NCBI GenBank assembly: GCA_020831765.1
Contig: JAFIFY010000060.1
Coordinates: forward strand, 1-38,674
DNA: 38,674 nt
Direction of reading: 5' to 3'
Source: Phycisphaeraceae bacterium
Lineage (GTDB): Bacteria; Planctomycetota; Phycisphaerae; Phycisphaerales; Phycisphaeraceae
Shown: positions 1 to 33,606 of the stretch, in pieces
How the letters are laid out: every line of letters starts with the position of its first letter
Numbering within the stretch: the stretch's first letter is position 1
Program-made: the position numbers and the translations under genes
Notes under the pieces: model-generated
The model's input: the letters and a program-made list of their open reading frames with translations, nothing else
The model's database searches: none
Told to the model about the DNA's origin: nothing

Positions 1-255
1 CTAATCGTGGTTCGTCTGTCTTTGCGTGGCGTCGCTCACAACGACCTTGGGCGACACAATATCCTACTTGCAGATGATGGGCGCGTGTTCGTAATCGACT
101 TCGATCGCGCCACGCAATGCTCACCAGTTGCCGCGCTATACCGCAACTTCTTTCGGCGCTTGGGCTCGCGGGGTCCGATTGCTAACATACGCAGTTTATT
201 TCAATATGTGTTTCGGACACGCAGAGCGAGGCCCAAGGCAACCTCAGAGAAATAA
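1..255 (+). CDS. Lipopolysaccharide/sugar kinase-like protein, 3' end only
   Basis: The frame is open from the left edge of the window, so this is the C-terminal part of a larger protein; the GTG at 7 is unlikely to be the real start. The fragment carries the catalytic loop of a protein-kinase-like fold, HNDLGRHNIL, followed by a metal-binding segment VIDFDR. This pairing is typical of Kdo/heptose kinases (WaaP/KdkA/InaA type), which phosphorylate sugars of lipid A-core glycolipids at the inner membrane. The tail after the active site is short and basic. It sits at the edge of a polysaccharide locus, which fits such a role. The substrate cannot be told from the fragment, and a relative in the APH or RIO kinase group is possible. 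Base composition is more AT-rich than in genes further right. Confidence 0.6.
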   Translation, partial: LIVVRLSLRGVAHNDLGRHNILLADDGRVFVIDFDRATQCSPVAALYRNFFRRLGSRGPIANIRSLFQYVFRTRRARPKATSEK

Positions 256-419
256 GCACACTGAGAGGTCGCCACGGATGATGGGCGCGCCGGAAGGATA
301 ACGTTCGTGCAGAAGCTTATTGTATGTGCGTTAGCCTGCTGTCGGTATATTGATATGTAATAACGAAACTAAGGACATCGAAGCATCTACGCAGATATAT
401 CTATCGTGAGTAATGCGGG
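256..419. other. AT-rich gap between kinase fragment and flippase remnant
   Basis: No convincing coding frame on either strand. The stretch is clearly AT-richer than the rest of the window, especially about 310-410. I see no tRNA, no strong inverted repeat and no terminator with a T-run. It separates two convergent coding remnants, so it may be an old recombination scar in the polysaccharide locus. Confidence 0.4.
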
Positions 420-840
420 CTAATTCGTTGACCTGACCCTGCGCAACAGAACCTTTATGGGTTGGCTCAGCCGCTGCTTCTCCTCTCTGGTGAGGGAAAA
501 ACACAGAGCGACGATCAGACCGACTCCCCAGAACGTCAGGCAGAAGGCGATCGCATAATTCAAGGTCGGCTCAAAATAGTGTGGCCACCAGAAGCCCCAG
601 TAGCAACGCGGGCACGATCGACACGGCGACCGGCAAAACCGTCTTGCTGATCCAATCCCGGTACCGGAGCTTGAGCAGTCGGCATGCCACGGCCACCTCG
701 ACCAGGGTGCTCAACAGGGCGAAGACCGCGAACAGAACGGCCATCGCATTGGCTGACGAACATCCCGCTTCGCCATTTCGCGCCGTCAAGCTGGGCGCCA
801 TCATGAGCTTTCGGAACTTGAACAACTGGTTGTAGGGCCA
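420..840 (-). pseudogene. C-terminal remnant of a Wzx-type polysaccharide flippase, frameshifted
   Basis: On the minus strand one frame reads from a stop at 841-843 to a stop at 571-573 and encodes two hydrophobic helices (around AMAVLFAVFALL and VAVSIVPALLLGLLVA). About 20 bases before that stop, a shift of one base opens a second frame that continues to a stop at 420-422. The second frame reads through YFEPTLNYAIAFCLTFW and a last membrane helix, then ends in the basic tail LTREEKQRLSQPI...LLRRVRSTN. Joined, the frames give about 140 residues that look like the last helices of an oligosaccharide flippase (MviN/Wzx/polysaccharide_synt families, normally over 400 aa). The N-terminal two-thirds are absent. 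It is therefore truncated and frameshifted. A sequencing error could explain the shift but not the missing start. Confidence 0.6.
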
Positions 841-12044: not shown

Positions 12045-12071
12045 TCGGCGACGGCCGTGTACGAAACATCT

Positions 12072-13319
12072 TCAGGAAGTGGTCAGTGGGCTGAAGCGCG
12101 ATCCTTCCAGCGGAATCTTGCGATTGACCGGCGGGCCCTTGGGTACCTTCGGGCCAATGACCACCAGGCCGATGAACGTCAGCACGTTCACGCCCAGCAT
12201 CCACCAGTGAATCGCCGGCACCTTGAGCGCGACCAGAACCGCCGCGGCCAGCAGCAGGATCAGGCTGACTGGGATCAGGCATCGCCAGGCGAGCTGCATG
12301 AGTTGATCGAAACGGAATCGTGGGATGGTCCACCGGATGACCATCACCAGGGCCACAATCAGGAACATCTTGAACGCGAACACACCCACATTGAGCAGAA
12401 CCAGCGGCAGACCGCCGGCCGCCGCCTGGCCGACGTAGAACGGGATGCTCCAGCCACCGAGGAACAGAAGCGTGAAGAACGCCGCGCCCGTGACGATGTG
12501 GGCGTATTCGGCCAGGAAATACAGGGCGAACTTCATCGAGGAATATTCGGTGTGGAACCCGCCGACCAGTTCCTGTTCACACTCGGCCAGATCGAACGGC
12601 GTCCGATTGGCCTCGGCGAGCTGGCTGGTGAAGAAGATGACGGCCAGGAGCGGCATCCAGACGATGTTCCAACCCAGGATGCCCTGCGCCTGGTTCAGCA
12701 CGATCAGATCAGTCCGCGCGGTGCCGAACATCAGGATGATGATCAGAATCGAGACGCCCAGCGGAATCTCATAGCTGAGCATCTGGGCCGTGGCCCGGAG
12801 CCCGCCGAGAAACGAATATTTGTTGTTCGAGGCATAGCCGCCGATCACCACGCCGTAGACCGCCAGGGAGCCGACGGCCAGAAAGTAAAGAATGCCGATA
12901 TTGATCGGGGCCACCGTCACCACGGCCATGCCCGGCTGGGCGATTTCCGTACCGAACACGGTCAGCCCCGGAAAGTCCCAGTATCCGCCCCAGGGAATCA
13001 CGGCCCAGGCGATCAATGCCGGGACGACCGCCAGCATCGGCGCGATGATGAACAGCACCTTATCGACGTTCGGTGGGGTGTAATCTTCCTTGAGAAAGAG
13101 CTTCAGGCCATCGGCCAGTGGCTGCCCGAGTCCCCAGAAGTGAAACTTGGGGAGGAATGGCTGGCCAAAGTCGAATCCCGTCCGATTCGGCCCGATTCGA
13201 TTTTGCACCCACGACGCGATCTTCCGCTCCAGCATGACCGAATAGGCCACCGCACCCAGGATCACGTGCAGGGCGATGGTCACAACCAGCATACTGACAA
13301 AGACTTGAGCGCTGAACAT
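12072..13319 (-). CDS. nuoH: NADH-quinone oxidoreductase subunit H (complex I, NuoH)
   Basis: A 415-aa integral membrane protein with about eight to nine helices. It has the NuoH landmarks: ERKIASWVQNRIGPNRTG near the N-terminus (quinone-site loop), QPLADGLKLFLKED, then FDLAECEQELVGGFHTEYSS and MKFALYFLAEY. NuoH connects the hydrophilic arm of complex I to the membrane arm and forms much of the quinone chamber. The acidic quinone-loop motif, usually EAESELVAG, reads ECEQELVGG, which keeps the key Glu residues. A GGAG Shine-Dalgarno lies about 11 bases before the ATG. The gene normally sits between nuoG and nuoI, but here its neighbours are clpX and a signal peptidase gene, so it stands alone. 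The C-terminal tail beyond the last helix is basic. Confidence 0.95.
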   Translation of the reverse strand: MFSAQVFVSMLVVTIALHVILGAVAYSVMLERKIASWVQNRIGPNRTGFDFGQPFLPKFHFWGLGQPLADGLKLFLKEDYTPPNVDKVLFIIAPMLAVVPALIAWAVIPWGGYWDFPGLTVFGTEIAQPGMAVVTVAPINIGILYFLAVGSLAVYGVVIGGYASNNKYSFLGGLRATAQMLSYEIPLGVSILIIILMFGTARTDLIVLNQAQGILGWNIVWMPLLAVIFFTSQLAEANRTPFDLAECEQELVGGFHTEYSSMKFALYFLAEYAHIVTGAAFFTLLFLGGWSIPFYVGQAAAGGLPLVLLNVGVFAFKMFLIVALVMVIRWTIPRFRFDQLMQLAWRCLIPVSLILLLAAAVLVALKVPAIHWWMLGVNVLTFIGLVVIGPKVPKGPPVNRKIPLEGSRFSPLTTS

Positions 13320-13502
13320 CGAAACGGGTTCTCCACGAGGACCAAATGGGCCGGCGGTCAGGTTCTTCCGGCGGCGTAGTTTGTATCCCGCTCCAAGCCC
13401 CTAGGCAAGCAGGAGCCGCCCGACGTGCGACCGGACGCAGGGACCAGGGATTCATCGGCCGGCCACCGAGGCAAAGCAGTCTCGATGCCCCAGGCCAACC
13501 GC

Positions 13503-13515: not shown

Positions 13516-15291
13516 ATGGCATCCAAGAACAAAAACGCCAGGACTCACTCCGACCCCGGTTCATCCATCCGGGAGACGCTTGAGTCGATCATCATCGCTT
13601 TTGTCCTGGCCTTCGCGTTCCGGGCGTTCGTGGTCGAGGCGTTCGTGATCCCGACCGGCTCCATGGCCCCAACACTTCTGGGTCAACATGTACGGATTCC
13701 GTGCCATGAGTGTGGTTATCACTACGCCGTTGACCCCCACCTGGGACAGATGGATCATGGCACGGTCGTTACCCGGGCACCCAACATGCCCGACGATCTT
13801 CGATTCGCCGGCTGTCCGATGTGTTTTGCGGTCAATCCCATTCCGCAGCAGCGGATTCGCGATGGGGACCGAATCCTCGTTCAGAAGGCAGTTTACTGGT
13901 TGGGCAACCCGAAGCGCTGGGATGTGGCTGTGTTCAAGAATCCACGTGTGCCACACCAGAACTTCATCAAGCGGCTGATCGGCCTGCCCTTCGAGGATGT
14001 GGTCATCGTCGAGGGCAATGTGTACGTCCGCCCGCTGGATCAGCAAGGTGATCCGGCGGGGTCGTGGCGGATCGCGAGGAAGTCCGACCCGGCGGAGAAC
14101 CCGCGTTGGGAGCGTGTGCAGCGGGCGGTCTGGCAGCCGATCTTTCACACACGATATACGCCGATCAACGCCAACACGCCCGGCCGCTGGAATTCTCCGT
14201 GGCGCGTTGAAGCCGGTCACTGGCTCACCGGCGTCGATGCCGGTGCCGGCAGTCAGGTTCTGCCCGACCAGCCGCGCGGCCGATTCCAGACCCGGACCGA
14301 AGACGATGAACCCGCAAGGTTGGCCTTCGATTGGGAGATCGCCGATCGACGGGGGACCGAGCAGGTCAATCAGCGTGCCCTGGGCGTGCTTTATCCCTAC
14401 AACCAGCTCAAGACCCTGCCGAGTCTGTCCGGGTTCGGCGCTGTCCGTCAACCGCGCATGCGTCACCCCATCGAGGAAGTCCGCCTGGCATCGCGTGTCC
14501 GAATGGCCGCGCATGATTCCGCCAGGCCCGCCCGACTGGTGCTTGGTTCGCAAGTGCGGATCGATGATCAGCCCGACGCGGTTCCCGTGAATGTCGCGGC
14601 GGTGGTTCATAGCGATGGCGAGTGCTATCTGGCTCGCGAGGTTGATGGTGAACTGCGACCACTTGACGGGACGGTGCGGATCGGTGCCTGGCCGAGCAGC
14701 CGCACACGCGAGGTCGAGCTCTGGATCGTCGATCAGGAACTGCTTCTTTGGGTGGATGGCCGATGTGTCCAGCGGTTCGCCTTCGATCTTGATTTCCAAT
14801 CGACGATAGAGGTCCGCCCCGCGCTACCTGAGCATTTTCGGCCTCGCATCATGTTGGAGTTTTCCGGTGGCGAGTTGAGCCTGGAGAATATTCAACTGGA
14901 CCGTGACCTGTATTACGGCTCAAGTCGCGCGCAGCCGTCGGGCATGCAGGACCCTCCCACGCCGGGCGTTGGTTCCATCGTCAAGACGCCCGGCGGAACC
15001 CGCGGCTCGCCGATCAGTCTCGGACGGGATTTGTATTTCGCCGTCGGAGATAACAGCCCGATGAGCGAGGACAGCCGCTTCTGGGGCCAGCCCGATGAAT
15101 GGGTCAGCCGGTTGGTTCTCGATGATGCCCAGGGCGATCGACTGATCGAGCTCAATCGCGGCAGCGGAGTGGTTCCGCGTGAGTTGATCATGGGCCGGGC
15201 ATTTTTTGTCTATTTCCCGGCCGGCCATCGAATCAATGAGGGCGGCCCGGGCTTCATTCCGAACTTCGGGCGGATGCGCTTCATCGATTGA
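13516..15291 (+). CDS. lepB: Signal peptidase I with zinc-ribbon-like and jelly-roll-like insertions
   Basis: A 591-aa type I signal peptidase, which cleaves signal peptides at the outer face of the inner membrane; the family is usually 180-320 aa. One N-terminal helix (residues 24-44) leads into the catalytic PTGSMAPTL with Ser49. The general base is Lys152 in NFIKRLIGLP. The late box E is GDNSPMSEDSR from residue 511. Two insertions are striking. Between Ser49 and Lys152 lie two CxxC knuckles (Cys63/Cys66 and Cys100/Cys103), which look like a zinc ribbon. Between residues about 175 and 500 lies a beta-rich region including EVELWIVDQELLLWVDGR, reminiscent of a LamG/DUF1080 jelly roll. Box D reads GLPFED instead of GLPGD. 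Catalytic residues are intact, so it should be active. The last 80 residues return to the core fold. Confidence 0.9.
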   Translation: MASKNKNARTHSDPGSSIRETLESIIIAFVLAFAFRAFVVEAFVIPTGSMAPTLLGQHVRIPCHECGYHYAVDPHLGQMDHGTVVTRAPNMPDDLRFAGCPMCFAVNPIPQQRIRDGDRILVQKAVYWLGNPKRWDVAVFKNPRVPHQNFIKRLIGLPFEDVVIVEGNVYVRPLDQQGDPAGSWRIARKSDPAENPRWERVQRAVWQPIFHTRYTPINANTPGRWNSPWRVEAGHWLTGVDAGAGSQVLPDQPRGRFQTRTEDDEPARLAFDWEIADRRGTEQVNQRALGVLYPYNQLKTLPSLSGFGAVRQPRMRHPIEEVRLASRVRMAAHDSARPARLVLGSQVRIDDQPDAVPVNVAAVVHSDGECYLAREVDGELRPLDGTVRIGAWPSSRTREVELWIVDQELLLWVDGRCVQRFAFDLDFQSTIEVRPALPEHFRPRIMLEFSGGELSLENIQLDRDLYYGSSRAQPSGMQDPPTPGVGSIVKTPGGTRGSPISLGRDLYFAVGDNSPMSEDSRFWGQPDEWVSRLVLDDAQGDRLIELNRGSGVVPRELIMGRAFFVYFPAGHRINEGGPGFIPNFGRMRFID

Positions 15292-20477: not shown

Positions 20478-20756
20478 CGTGGGAAGTTCTCCAGCCTCTT
20501 TTGGCTGCGTCCGGGGGCCTGCTTCACGACTGGGCGGCGTGAATCCAACCGCCCCCTCCAGCGCGAAAGCCCCGCATCATAACCGATCAGTCCCGTTGAG
20601 CCCGACGCGCCAAATGCCGTCCGAGATGTGCCCGTCCGGCTGCCAATGGGTACCAAAACAGGCCCCGAATCGAATGACGGCTCTACGCAATACCCCGGTC
20701 ACCCCCATCAATATTCCCCGTAAACCCCGATACGATAAGCTATGAGCAATCGCCAT

Positions 20757-20830
20757 GCGCCCGTAGCTCAGTTGGATAGAGCAGCGGACTTCTAATCCGC
20801 AGGTCGGAGGTTCGAATCCTCCCGGGCGTG
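20757..20830 (+). tRNA. tRNA-Arg (anticodon TCT)
   Basis: A complete cloverleaf can be drawn. The acceptor stem is GCGCCCG with CGGGCGT (a G-U first pair), discriminator G at 20830. The D-arm begins GCTC. The anticodon stem is GCGGA/TCCGC around the loop CTTCTAA, giving TCT, which reads AGA (Arg). The T-arm is GGAGG-TTCGAAT-CCTCC. The 3' CCA is not encoded. The acceptor start resembles the E. coli tRNA-Arg(TCT). Confidence 0.95.
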
Positions 20831-20870
20831 TTGTTTCTGTTTCGCTCGACCCACAGAACGGAGACCGCGC

Positions 20871-23582
20871 ATGTGCCCTGTTAAGTCAATCTTCCCTGCC
20901 TGGATTTGCCTTTTTGCCTGCATCTTGACCATGGGGTGTTCCGCCGTATATCCCGCATCCGATTCAGTTGCTGCGCGCCTGGTTCAGAACGATGAGATGA
21001 TCCGGGTGGACCTGGCCAACGGTGTTTCGCTGCGGTTTGCCGTGCATGATGGATGGCTGCTGGGCCTTCAGTCGGCGACTTTCGATGGGTCGGAGCTGAC
21101 CAGTGACCGGACCGTGCAGCGGCCGCTGGTCGCGCAGGAGTACATCCGGCCGGGCATCTGGCCGTTCATGAAGCTGGTCTCAGCCAGCGTGGTCGATGGC
21201 GCGGCGCGACTGGAGGTCGAGCTTTTCGGCGGCGACAAGCGCGAGCTGTTCATGGAGGAGTTCATCTTCGCTCCGGACGACGCGGCGGCGATGGGCGAGA
21301 AGATCACGCCCGAACTGGCCGCCCAGCGCGACCGGGCCACGGCGGCGCGCGATGTCCTCGACCCGCTGGTCGCGGACGATGACTCCCTTAACCGCATCCG
21401 CATCCAGCTCGAGCGCGAGCGTGCCCAGACCGACGATATCGATCCCGAGATGACCTGGGATGTCATCAACAACCGCACCCGTATCGAGCGATTCGAGCGG
21501 CAACTGGCCGCGGCCAAGCGTCGGCTCTACCCCGACGCGGTGCGGACCGACGAGCACCGCGCTGCGCTGGCGGCGATTGAAGAGTTCGAGGCGGCCCGGC
21601 GGCAGCGCGCCGAAGAGGTCGCCAGCATCCACCGCGACTTCTATGCCTTCGCCCACCTGCGGCTGCCCTCGGAGACCAGCCGGATCGACATCCTCACCAA
21701 GCGCCTCGCGGCACATGGCGACCGCCTGGAGCGGGGCGGGCGGCTGGTGTGGACGATCCGGCCTCAGACGCGGCGGATCGCCGGCTGGGATTGGCACGGC
21801 TGGGCCAGCAGCTACGGGGTAACGCTCGATGGCGGGCACAAAGTCAACAACATCCGGCAAGTCGGGACGTGGGAGCTCGGTGGCCAGGCGGCCGGGTTGA
21901 CGGTGGTCAACCTCCGCTACCGCGGGCTGGGGGAAATCGAGCAGACGCTCGAAGCCGCACCCGACGGCGAGGGCGTCGGCAGCGCGTGGAGCACGACGGA
22001 GATTATTCCCGGCGCTGCGGGAGGCGCGCCGGCGGTGTCGCCCATCATCCCGCCGACGGCCAACCGCAGCCTTGAAGACCGCGGGTATGCCCTGACCCAC
22101 AGGGTGGGGGCGTGGATCTCGAAGCTCGGGCGCGGCTCGGGCGTGGGATTCGTCGACTTCCAGCACCGCGACGGGTTGACATTCATCAGCTCGTTCGACC
22201 GACAGGGTGCCCATCGGGCGGTGACGGAGATTTTTCCGGGCGACCGCGAACTGTCCCAAACTGATGAGCAGTGGTTCGCCAACACCGATCAATTCTCGAC
22301 CGAGCCGCAGCTTTATCTGGTGCTCAAGCAGCCGGCCGGTCAGCACGAGATGACCACGCGCTGGCAGGAGGTGGATCAGTACTTCCGCGACGTGGTCTCG
22401 GAGAATCTGGGCTTTGTTCAGGTCGAGCCCCTTCCGGGCGTTGGCTGGCTCGTGGAGGCCGGTCGGGCCGGGTTTTATGCCGGGCTGGCCGGCAACCGCT
22501 TCCGAGAGTGGTACGACAGTGGCATGCGGATGCACGTGACTCACACGCCCGGCTGGTACACCGAGCAGCACCGCGATGGGCCGCACCGGCCGCAGACGCC
22601 CGGCGGCAATTCGAACCGCATTTTCGACTGGGTCATCACCGATGATGTCAAGGAGCACTGGCGGCAACTCCAGCAGTTCAGCGTCGCTCACGATGTCCCG
22701 TATTTCATCTATCTTGGCGGGATGGTCCGGCCGGATGGTCCCTTCGCCCACGCGGTCGGCACCGAGCCGGAGAAGTGGTCCATCAACATACCCGGTTCCG
22801 GCTACTCCCATGGCTACCCGCCGCTGGTCGGGCACAACCTTTATGTGCCCGAGATGCGCGAGTTGCTCACGCAGCGCCTGACCGACATTCAGGAGAACCT
22901 CGGCTTCCAGGGCCTGTGGTCCGACAGCTTCCAGAACATGTACATGAGCCAACTGAACTGGGGTGACGATTCCGGTGCGCCGATGCAGGCCAAATGGTGG
23001 CCGCTGCTTGCTGAGTGGAGCCGTCGGGACATTCATTTCATGAGTGAAAGCCACGCTTTTCCGGGCCTGAGCTGCTCCATCGAGGTGTCCGGCTGGGAAT
23101 CGGCTTATCACTATTTCCAGTATGTGTGGAAGTGGCATCGCGGAGCTTCCCAGCGTAACTACACCCCGCAACAGCACAACGAGATGACCTACCGCTTCAT
23201 GGCCAATAAATCATGGCTGGCCCCGGACAACGCCACCGTGCGGGTGGTCCCCGAGTTCACACGCCTCAGCGCCGAATACATGGCCGCGCTGCCCGCCATG
23301 CGCCGAAGCTGGGTACTGCCTGACGGGCGCGGCGTGCTGTGGTTGCCTTTTGACTCCGACTCCGAGGGCGTGCTCTTCAGCTACCGGGATCAGCCGGCGC
23401 CGGACGGTGTCTCGGCCTCGTACATCCTTGATGCCGGCCAGACAGCCATCCAGCGTTACCGCACCTATCGCGTCGTCGGCTCGGATCTGCCCCGAGCGTT
23501 CGGCATGCTTCGCCCGGAGGCCGCTGATCCCCGTCAGAAACAAACGTATCGCCCGGTCGAGTTCCGGTATCCCGAGCCGTAA
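20871..23582 (+). CDS. Large lipoprotein resembling a TIM-barrel glycoside hydrolase
   Basis: A 903-aa exported protein; its hydrophobic leader ends LTMGC, a plausible lipoprotein cleavage site. I do not recognise the family with certainty. Residues about 45-130 are beta-rich. A strongly charged helical stretch follows at about 140-260 (e.g. [17 protein letters not shown] and [16 protein letters not shown]), likely a coiled-coil hairpin inserted in the N-terminal beta domain. The second half looks like a sugar-hydrolase barrel: [32 protein letters not shown], then [15 protein letters not shown] with an Asp where GH31/GH36/clan-D enzymes place the nucleophile, and [14 protein letters not shown] with a candidate acid Glu. 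A C-terminal beta domain closes the chain. It probably acts on a polysaccharide in the periplasm or at the outer surface. It starts 41 bases after the tRNA with GGAG upstream. Confidence 0.7.
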
Positions 23583-31291: not shown

Positions 31292-33379
31292 TCAGGGGCG
31301 GCCCAATAGCCTTTCCAAGCTTCGCCTGGCATTCGGTCCGGCGGTATCGGTCGCTTGTTCCAGGGCGGGCCTGAGTACCTCAAGGTATTCCCGGGCGGCT
31401 TGTCCGGCGAGACTGCGCTGTTCGGCGTAGGGAGCATCCATCTGGCGGATCAATTCGCGTGCCAAGGTTGCCAGTTCATCGGCGGTGGGCATGGTGGGTT
31501 GAACATCGGCGGGGTCTTCAGGCTCCCAGGTGTAAACCTTGATGCTGTCCATTTGGACCCGGCTGCCGACGGTATGGAAACCGATCCGCCGGCCGAACAC
31601 ACCGCGATCCTCGGCATCGTTGATGATGCGTTTCGGGAATGGTTTGCCATCGATGGTGACGGTCAGTTCACGTTGGATGCGCTGGATGCGGATGTTGTGC
31701 CACTGATTGGGCGTGAAGGTTACGGGCGGTCCACGATCGGTTTCTCCGGCGACTTGCCATGCGCTTCGGGAGTTTCCCGCGATGCCGAAGTGAAACGCCG
31801 CGCCCGCCCGCCAGGCGCGGCCAGCATCTCCGCCATTGATGTACAGGCATATGCTGTTGGGCCCGAGTTTACCGTCGAATTTGTCCAGCACGTTGCGGAC
31901 ACGATATTCCACCGCGATCTCGCGAGGAAAATCCCGCGGCAACTTCGCAAATGTCTGGCCCTCGCTTTCCAGTTGCAGGGCATTATCCACGATCTTCATC
32001 GTGCCGCCCATGTTGCCCAGCACCCAATCGCCCGGGCCATCCGAGAAATCTTCGGCATAGCGCTCCACCCAGATGCCCGGGCCATCATAAGCAGCGCGTT
32101 GATCGAGCGCTTTGAGCGTCTGTTGGGCGCCGGGTGATATCTCCAGAAGCGCAGCCGCTGTCATGCTGGGCCGTGCCGAGTCCTGACTGAGCGGAACCAA
32201 TCGACCATCACTGACCAGCACAGGACGCGTGATGTAGGGGCGCGGCGATTGGCCCTCATCGCCGTTGGCGGGCTGGACCACCGCATAGACGCAGAACAGC
32301 CCCTCGCGGAGCTTATCGGTGGTGAGGGTCACACCCCTGCCCAGCACTCGGTCGCCATCGTAATAGGTGACCTGACCAGGCTGCGCATCGCCGGAATCCA
32401 CCGATAGCGTCACCCGGCCATCATCCTGGGAATCTACCCGAATCTCGCCGCGCGGCTGTCTGACCACATAAGCCCGCCAGACGTGCGCGCTGTAAGAGCC
32501 CGGCATCCAGTGAGCCTTGCGCGCATCGCCGGTGAAGTCACCCACCGGGACAATGTTGGGAACATCATTACCCCAGGTTGCGATATCGCCCAACCAGCCG
32601 GTTTCGGCAGGGGGCATGTCGCGAAGAGGTGTGGGGCCGGTGCGGGGGTCATGGTCCCCGGGCATGCGAAGGGCGATGATGTCTTTGAGAAAGGCCGCGT
32701 GCATGACCATGCTGGTGCCGTGACTGTGGCCGGCGCCCCACTGGATGGCGCAACCCCAGGGGAGATTCTGGTCGCGCGTGCGTGGCCAGGCCTCGTGGAA
32801 ATATCGAAGATCCCTGACGCCTTGGGGTCCCATCGGGAAGGGGTCTTCGGAGCCGATCACATTCATCACCGCGGTGCGGCGGGCGTTATCCAGGTTCTCC
32901 TCCCGGGCATTCATGCTCAGACCGCCAGACATCATCGCCAGCACGCGCTCGGGATGGTTGACGGTGATGGTGCCGGCCGGACCGACGCTGCGTGAGAACG
33001 CCTCGGGCACCCAGGGCACGTTAACCAGTTCGGGATGCCCGGACTCCTTGGCGAACTCGGCGATGAGTTCCTTGATGTTCTCCTTCAGCTCCGGAGGCCA
33101 GCGCAAGAGGGTGCCCAGCACCGCAAAGTCATTCGCTCTGGCGAAAGCCTGAAAATCCGCCCGGTCCGCGGCATGGGCGAAACCCAGGTCCAGGATCAGC
33201 CCGCGCACAACTTGGGTATCGGGCGGGATATAGAGTCGCGCCTTCTGGGAACCGCGTAAGTCCGGAAGGTATTTCTGTATCACCGGCTCCTGACCCCCTG
33301 CCGCCGACGAACACAAAAAGAGCGCTAACAAAGAGCAGATCGTCCATCGGGAGTCGCGGTTCCACTTGGCCATGGTCAT
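31292..33379 (-). CDS. Secreted esterase-fold protein fused to a jelly-roll (DUF1080-like) domain
   Basis: From ATG 33379 the product is 695 aa; a longer frame to 33463 adds residues that do not look coding. A signal peptide (WTICSLLALFLCSSAAGG) suggests export. The first 280 residues look like an alpha/beta-hydrolase of the feruloyl-esterase/PHB-depolymerase type: ARLYIPPD, GLILDLGFAHAADRADFQAF and NHPERVLAMMSGG. The nucleophile elbow is degenerate, EAFSRSVGP where active members have GxSxG. Residues about 480-640 form a LamG/DUF1080-type jelly roll (YAEDFSDGPGDWVLGN, NQWHNIRIQRI, VTIDGKPF). A short helical C-terminus ends in SLERLLGRP. It is likely a polymer-binding or -degrading protein of the cell envelope. 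It is divergent from ilvC. Confidence 0.65.
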   Translation of the reverse strand: MTMAKWNRDSRWTICSLLALFLCSSAAGGQEPVIQKYLPDLRGSQKARLYIPPDTQVVRGLILDLGFAHAADRADFQAFARANDFAVLGTLLRWPPELKENIKELIAEFAKESGHPELVNVPWVPEAFSRSVGPAGTITVNHPERVLAMMSGGLSMNAREENLDNARRTAVMNVIGSEDPFPMGPQGVRDLRYFHEAWPRTRDQNLPWGCAIQWGAGHSHGTSMVMHAAFLKDIIALRMPGDHDPRTGPTPLRDMPPAETGWLGDIATWGNDVPNIVPVGDFTGDARKAHWMPGSYSAHVWRAYVVRQPRGEIRVDSQDDGRVTLSVDSGDAQPGQVTYYDGDRVLGRGVTLTTDKLREGLFCVYAVVQPANGDEGQSPRPYITRPVLVSDGRLVPLSQDSARPSMTAAALLEISPGAQQTLKALDQRAAYDGPGIWVERYAEDFSDGPGDWVLGNMGGTMKIVDNALQLESEGQTFAKLPRDFPREIAVEYRVRNVLDKFDGKLGPNSICLYINGGDAGRAWRAGAAFHFGIAGNSRSAWQVAGETDRGPPVTFTPNQWHNIRIQRIQRELTVTIDGKPFPKRIINDAEDRGVFGRRIGFHTVGSRVQMDSIKVYTWEPEDPADVQPTMPTADELATLARELIRQMDAPYAEQRSLAGQAAREYLEVLRPALEQATDTAGPNARRSLERLLGRP

Positions 33380-33606
33380 TCTCACTTCAATTCTTCGGGG
33401 CTCAGACGGCTCAACTCCCGTGAAGAGCAAATCATTTCGCAAGCCGTGGCGATCTCCGGTCAATTTGCGGTCGAGTGCCTTTCGCTTCCCGGTCGGTCGT
33501 CGCCATGCTGCCCGGGAAATCGAAAGCGCCGCCCCAACCGTGGTTACCGGCTTCCGCCCGGAGTGGACGCCGCGCGCGGCGGCATTTCGACCCGGATTCC
33601 GCGGGC

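Follow-up and report, generated by a model that had tools for sequence, protein, structure and literature searches.

A putative glycoside hydrolase with GH13/GH31/GH36-type affinity and an inserted charged helical arm, matched by no Pfam or NCBIfam family

The window, that is, the whole stretch of 38,674 nucleotides of DNA analysed here, carries on its forward strand a gene for a protein of 903 amino acids, which an earlier note made from the letters alone had described as a lipoprotein with a glycosidase-like barrel. Its features, observed or predicted, are as follows.

20871..23582, + strand: gene for a putative glycoside hydrolase of 903 aa, with an ATG start and the stop codon included
20871..20939, + strand: signal peptide, residues 1-23, with a loose lipobox T-M-G-C23 (assigned by eye; low-confidence model helix at 9-21)
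20976..21239, + strand: N-terminal beta domain, first part, residues 36-123 (model strands; ten-residue blocks at pLDDT 59-89)
21240..21626, + strand: inserted charged helical arm, residues 124-252 (40% charged; absent from 20 of 29 members; model helices)
21627..22340, + strand: N-terminal beta domain, second part, residues 253-490; the W-E-x-x-G at 334-338 is near-invariant (from alignments)
22434..23288, + strand: predicted (beta/alpha) barrel catalytic domain, residues about 522-806 (beta/alpha alternation; GH13/31/36 profile and fold matches)
22923..22925, + strand: codon of D685 in LWSDS, candidate nucleophile following strand 4 (kept in all 29 members aligned; on the GH13/31/36 Asp column)
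23046..23048, + strand: codon of E726 in FMSES, candidate acid/base where strand 5 ends (kept in all 29 members aligned; the alignment with 1amy ends at 726-204)
23292..23480, + strand: C-terminal beta domain, residues about 808-870 (strands 810-869; in the barrel-only model the pLDDT of blocks reaches 81)

The same genome holds a paralogue whose product is 75% identical to the window protein, and over the 901 codons compared the two genes differ at 173 first, 144 second and 445 third codon positions; therefore 20871-23582 is coding. Inspected by eye, the N-terminus of the window protein shows a hydrophobic stretch followed by the loose lipobox T-M-G-C23, the lipobox of the paralogue, L-V-A-C, is more canonical than this, and the N-termini of two relatives, at loci L003 and L006, resemble plain signal peptides. 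Lipid anchoring, as supposed in the earlier note, is plausible rather than proven. A tRNA-Arg (tct) gene at 20756-20831 (+) ends 39 bases ahead of the start codon. The paralogue in the same genome, at L018:9874-14669 (contig 64 of G000), is followed by an overlapping gene for 676 aa, for which neither Pfam nor NCBIfam gives a match at E<=0.01.

The surroundings of the gene in the window are not clearly those of a sugar cluster. One GH42 gene and one MFS gene are encoded on the other strand, and a class II tRNA synthetase gene separates them from it. Elsewhere in the window, 13516-15291 (+) encodes a signal peptidase-like protein of 591 aa in which three stretches match Peptidase_S26, and two ORFs, at 12057-13379 (+) and 31292-33463 (-), of 440 and 723 aa, have no Pfam match at E<=0.001.

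Where else are such genes found? Used as a single query, the window protein gave matches in nine of the 392 genomes of its phylum, its own genome counted, and a profile of 16 rows gave matches in 18 of the 392, among them its own and at least one, in G161, that was judged to be due to chance. The same profile found matches in five of 61 genomes of close relatives, again including its own, and with only a partial match in G033. No relative was found on viral contigs in two scans, nor on plasmids by tblastn. A search for related loci returned four, all of them in MAGs titled Verrucomicrobia, so that the planctomycete provenance supposed in the earlier note was not confirmed: all four named relatives bear this other title. 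For the comparisons below, 29 members were counted, some of them (L011, L013, L015 and L017 among others) truncated where their contig ends, after exclusion of the degenerate L079, of L084 with its in-frame TGA, of L080, whose match at E 7.7e-4 is to an AAA-like protein and was taken as chance, of L007/L029, which is partial at a contig end, and of duplicate loci of the same genes. The excluded L084:576-2744 (-) is by itself a member of the family interrupted by the in-frame TGA. The members are of two kinds. After trimming, those bearing the charged insert are 866-910 aa long and those without it 611-769 aa, with some truncated by contig ends. In a tree of the 29 barrels, the nine insert-bearing members and one insert-less paralogue at L004 make up one branch with a support of 100/100.

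The homology between these two kinds of members is firm. When profile A4, which is made of five insert-bearing members and the insert-less L004 paralogue, was aligned by hhalign with the 19 insert-less members, E was 5.5e-24 over 321 columns, and the Asp fell on the Asp and the Glu on the Glu. The earlier note had pointed to acidic residues in LWSDS and FMSES and had asked whether they are conserved in homologues. They are: D685 and E726 are the only window positions invariant throughout the barrel alignment of 29 members, and a full-length alignment agrees (29 of 29 for each). Apart from the L004 paralogue, at 40%, the insert-less members share just 14-20% identity with the window barrel, and therefore the invariance of the two acids is far from what chance would give. 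The spacing between the two is also well kept, being 41 in 25 of the 29 members, 42 in three and 36 in one.

To place these residues on a fold, we rely on two AlphaFold2 models, one of the full-length protein and one of the barrel only, whose input alignments had just five and six sequences, respectively. The quality of both is poor (mean pLDDT 49.9 and 51.7; pTM 0.36 and 0.50), the confidence of the full-length model is low beyond about residue 331, and they serve mainly to give the order of strands. In the full-length model, strands at 525, 554, 611, 681 and 723 follow each other with helices between them, and the barrel-only model adds two strands of three residues between the third and the fourth main strands. 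D685 comes directly after strand 681-684 in both low-confidence models, while E726 is the last residue of strand 723-726 in the full-length model and comes after strand 722-725 in the barrel-only one; thus, as far as models of pLDDT 49.9 and 51.7 tell, the two acids lie at the ends of the fourth and the fifth main barrel strands. The idea of a barrel with acidic motifs at strand ends holds to that extent, and, going by the strand positions of these low-confidence models, the two acids may point towards each other in a pocket.

It might be imagined that such a protein is a pseudoenzyme, which uses a glycosidase barrel for carbohydrate binding or as a structural part. The degenerate L079:3966-6083 (-) points in that direction, as its Asp is kept and its Glu, by eye, is absent; it may be an inactive form of the family. 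However, both acids are invariant in 29 very diverse members while nearly all other positions of the barrel vary, and for the family we hold a pseudoenzyme to be highly improbable.

As a single sequence, the window protein has no match in Pfam or NCBIfam at E<=10. Three matches to PDB sequences, the best of which is to TRIP12 at E 0.1, look like chance. Profiles of the insert-bearing clade, A2 of nine rows and A4 of six rows, matched no known glycosidase either. The insert-less profile gives a link: against PDB it matches a GH13 amylase, 4gkl, best (E 6.8e-9), followed by a GH31 enzyme, 8j53 (5.8e-7), and a GH36 enzyme, 3mi6 (1e-6). Profile A5, in which insert-bearing and insert-less members are combined, matches 8j53 at E 1.5e-8. 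The matches of the insert-less profile end at its position 186, an Asp, which stands opposite residue 416 of YicI, 478 of AgaSK and 328 of neopullulanase, residues that we take to be the catalytic nucleophiles of these enzymes.

Comparison of folds gives modest support. By VIA-align, the full-length model aligns with barley amylase 1amy over 157 residues (Z 9.3; rmsd 3.3 A), with 522..726 on 1..204 of the chain, and with 1ht6 at Z 8.9, with 521..727 on 1..206; residues 204 and 205 are the acid/base Glu of these two isozymes. Models that have no clear counterpart often reach a best Z of 7-8, so that even Z 9.3 is modest support and no more. For the barrel-only model, no fold match attains Z 8, the best being 6.3. 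In Foldseek this model gave 11 matches at E<=0.001, whose TM-scores, taken by query length, are 0.20-0.30; ten are to GH13/31/36-type barrel glycosidases and one is to 9f9v, a Planctomycetota protein of unstated function. Foldseek with the full-length model gave nothing at E<=0.001 (best 8.8e-3). Because the confidence of the models is low, we give the sequence profiles more weight than the fold matches. We recognise the GH13/31/36-type superfamily by homology of the barrel and by an Asp conserved where strand 4 ends, and both were found by way of the insert-less relatives. Kinship with this superfamily is therefore supported through these relatives, not from the clade of the window protein by itself. 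The earlier statement that the sequence falls into no recognised family stands, in that none of the families searched fits, and is narrowed by the profile matches to this superfamily.

Curated family models were compared with the window protein and 19 relatives in Pfam and with the window protein and nine relatives in NCBIfam. A clear match to an existing family, which the earlier note had named as one result that would speak against its claim, did not appear: curated cut-offs were reached neither by the window protein in Pfam or NCBIfam nor by any of the 19 relatives in Pfam. The NCBIfam scan of the nine relatives yielded two weak matches of coiled-coil type, both in one protein. Below the thresholds, the Pfam matches of the relatives are mostly to glycosidases (GHL6, GHL10, GHL15, GH36, GH101, GH31, GH66 and GH13), and also include DUF7460, FhuF and TAT_signal. 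The window protein has no match to any of these eight glycosidase models, and the best score among the 19 relatives lies below the gathering score in each: 27 bits (L012, E 5.7e-6) against 35 for GHL6 (PF14871), 17.9 against 27 for GHL15 (PF14885), 25.8 (L075) against 27.9 for GHL10 (PF02638), 15.6 against 27 for GH36 Melibiase (PF02065), 16.3 against 23.5 for GH31 (PF01055), 15.5 (E 0.012) against 25 for GH101 (PF12905), 17.3 (L081, E 0.002) against 23.7 for GH66 (PF13199), and 11.4 (L012, E 0.18) against 22 for GH13 (PF00128). Four insert-bearing relatives have, like the window protein, no Pfam match at all to GHL6, GHL15 or GHL10. With no curated cut-off reached and with these sub-threshold matches to glycosidases, the protein therefore probably works like those enzymes without being filed in their families.

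Another possibility is that CAZy already has a family for these proteins, one represented by no Pfam or NCBIfam model and by no solved structure, and that they merely look unclassified. The searches covered Pfam, NCBIfam and PDB, which leaves room for such a family; yet the top dozen PDB matches of the insert-less profile, which score 25-39 bits and cover parts of the barrel, are distributed among GH13, GH31 and GH36, as is expected of kinship at the level of a superfamily and not of membership in one family, although a CAZy family without a structure would still be compatible with it. We regard this as unlikely. A literature search, covering titles and the opening parts of abstracts, gave no description of this family, and this argues only weakly that there is none. 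As to the new glycosidase family proposed in the earlier note, the glycosidase-like barrel, the two acidic candidates and the lack of a Pfam or NCBIfam family all fit with it, and its distinctness is measured against Pfam, NCBIfam and PDB only. In sum, the window gene likely encodes an exported and possibly lipid-anchored glycoside hydrolase of the GH13/GH31/GH36-type superfamily, in a family absent from Pfam and NCBIfam.

How would such an enzyme work? In the architecture that we propose, a (beta/alpha)8 barrel stands between an N-terminal and a C-terminal beta domain. The nucleophile would be D685, where barrel strand 4 ends, and the acid/base would be E726, where strand 5 ends; this pair would bring about retaining, probably alpha-specific hydrolysis. 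The same superfamily also includes transferases, and several GH13 transferase chains are among the PDB profile matches, so that a carbohydrate-active enzyme acting by another route, for example a transglycosidase or an inverting enzyme, has to be considered. The invariant Asp after strand 4 and the Glu at strand 5 fit a retaining GH13-like hydrolase, but transferases share this arrangement; such another route seems to us rather improbable, and retaining hydrolysis is the reading that we carry forward.

The highly charged helical stretch that the earlier note saw interrupting the N-terminal beta domain is there: K, R, D and E make up 40% of residues 124-252 against 21% of the remainder of the protein, and the full-length model places helices at 147-167, 171-189, 195-223 and 227-249, flanked by beta strands, with a pLDDT of 75-90 in all ten-residue blocks of the insert except one at 58. 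The stretch is helical as described, though four helices are more than the single hairpin that was supposed. The columns of the insert hold 123-134 residues in nine of the 29 members, 17 in one paralogue and 0-1 in the other 19, and the arm is a true insertion of about 125 residues in the N-terminal beta domain. Its length is nearly constant while its sequence is not, F131 being the sole invariant residue within 124-252 in an alignment of the nine bearers, and therefore it looks like a structural arm. The profile of the insert-bearing clade weakly matches coils of keratin and myosin, at E 0.013 in the best case, and these matches reflect a generic coiled-coil character. A part for the insert in the catalytic site was considered and rejected, as 20 of the 29 members do without it, including the tandem paralogue in L004. 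Was the insert gained once? On the tree of 29 barrels its presence requires two changes, with weak support (87/57) for where the insert-less paralogue branches; a single gain is neither shown nor excluded by this tree. The four-helix arm of this clade might serve in docking or oligomerisation outside the active site. The insert-less member at L004:13463-15769 shares its cluster with an insert-bearing one, and is a natural control for the arm.

Neighbours could be read at eight insert-bearing loci, that is, the window, L003-L006, L018, L020 and L021. A DJ-1/PfpI protein of about 500 aa is found at four of them (L003:423-1970, L004:6470-7963, L006:659-2296 and L020:3849-5384), GDSL hydrolases at three (L003, L004 and, by similarity, L020), DUF5107 proteins at three (L003, L004 and L005) and GH28 at two (L005 and L020). 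In addition, L005 has a sulfatase and an AraC-type regulator nearby, and L004 a LacI-type regulator and the insert-less family member. Clustering of genes found none of these neighbour types at the window, L018 and L021, where the Pfam scan covered part of the genes. Some relatives thus sit in clusters for carbohydrate degradation. The DJ-1/PfpI neighbour has a relative on contig 131 of the genome of the window.

Verrucomicrobia-type degraders are expected to hold many unassigned enzymes that cut sugars, and, if the reading given here is true, one more enzyme family would be added to their repertoire. For tests it offers two named candidate residues, a paralogue in the same genome and natural variants without the insert, and the GH28, sulfatase and GDSL genes that cluster with some relatives may give a hint of the substrate.

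Among named families, GHL6, which like GHL10 and GHL15 is a hypothetical glycosyl hydrolase family of Pfam and is the best Pfam match of L012, comes close by sequence, with hhalign to eight GHL6 loci giving E 6.3e-9 over 92 columns that reach the Asp region; this comparison is rough, as the reading frames of two of the eight loci (L097 and L098) look wrong, their strand differing from that of the match. The similarity (92-101 columns) stops at strand 4 and leaves the Glu outside. In GH101/GH129 and GH66, an Asp of strand 4 acts together with a Glu of strand 5, as is proposed here, and GH101 and GH66 are among the sub-threshold matches of the relatives; however, these matches stay below the curated cut-offs, and GH66 dextranases reach only Z 5.6-5.9 on the barrel model. 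A search of 99 genomes for GH66 members for comparison gave four weak places only. GH36 and GH31 appear to resemble the window family in their order of domains, with which an alignment of the full-length model with GH36 8x1b is consistent that spans 45..736 with 326 residues, though at an rmsd of 10.4 A, and D685 is opposite their Asp column, which holds their nucleophile. Their second acid is an Asp after strand 6, whereas that of the window family is a Glu at strand 5. GH13 (clan GH-H) shares the partial superposition of the barrel, the profile match to 4gkl, the Asp after strand 4 and the Glu at strand 5. The Asp-Glu pair of GH13 is spaced by 25-30, in contrast to mostly 41 in the window family, which further differs in its N-terminal beta domain with an insert; a third catalytic Asp like that of GH13 was not identified in it. 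The most far-reaching reading compatible with these results, with a probability of roughly one in two, is an unnamed family of putative glycoside hydrolases, spread over several bacterial families of one phylum, which would combine a GH36-like order of domains with a GH13-like Asp/Glu pair, and in which one clade would have gained a helical arm of nearly constant length, perhaps used for docking the enzyme in a surface complex.
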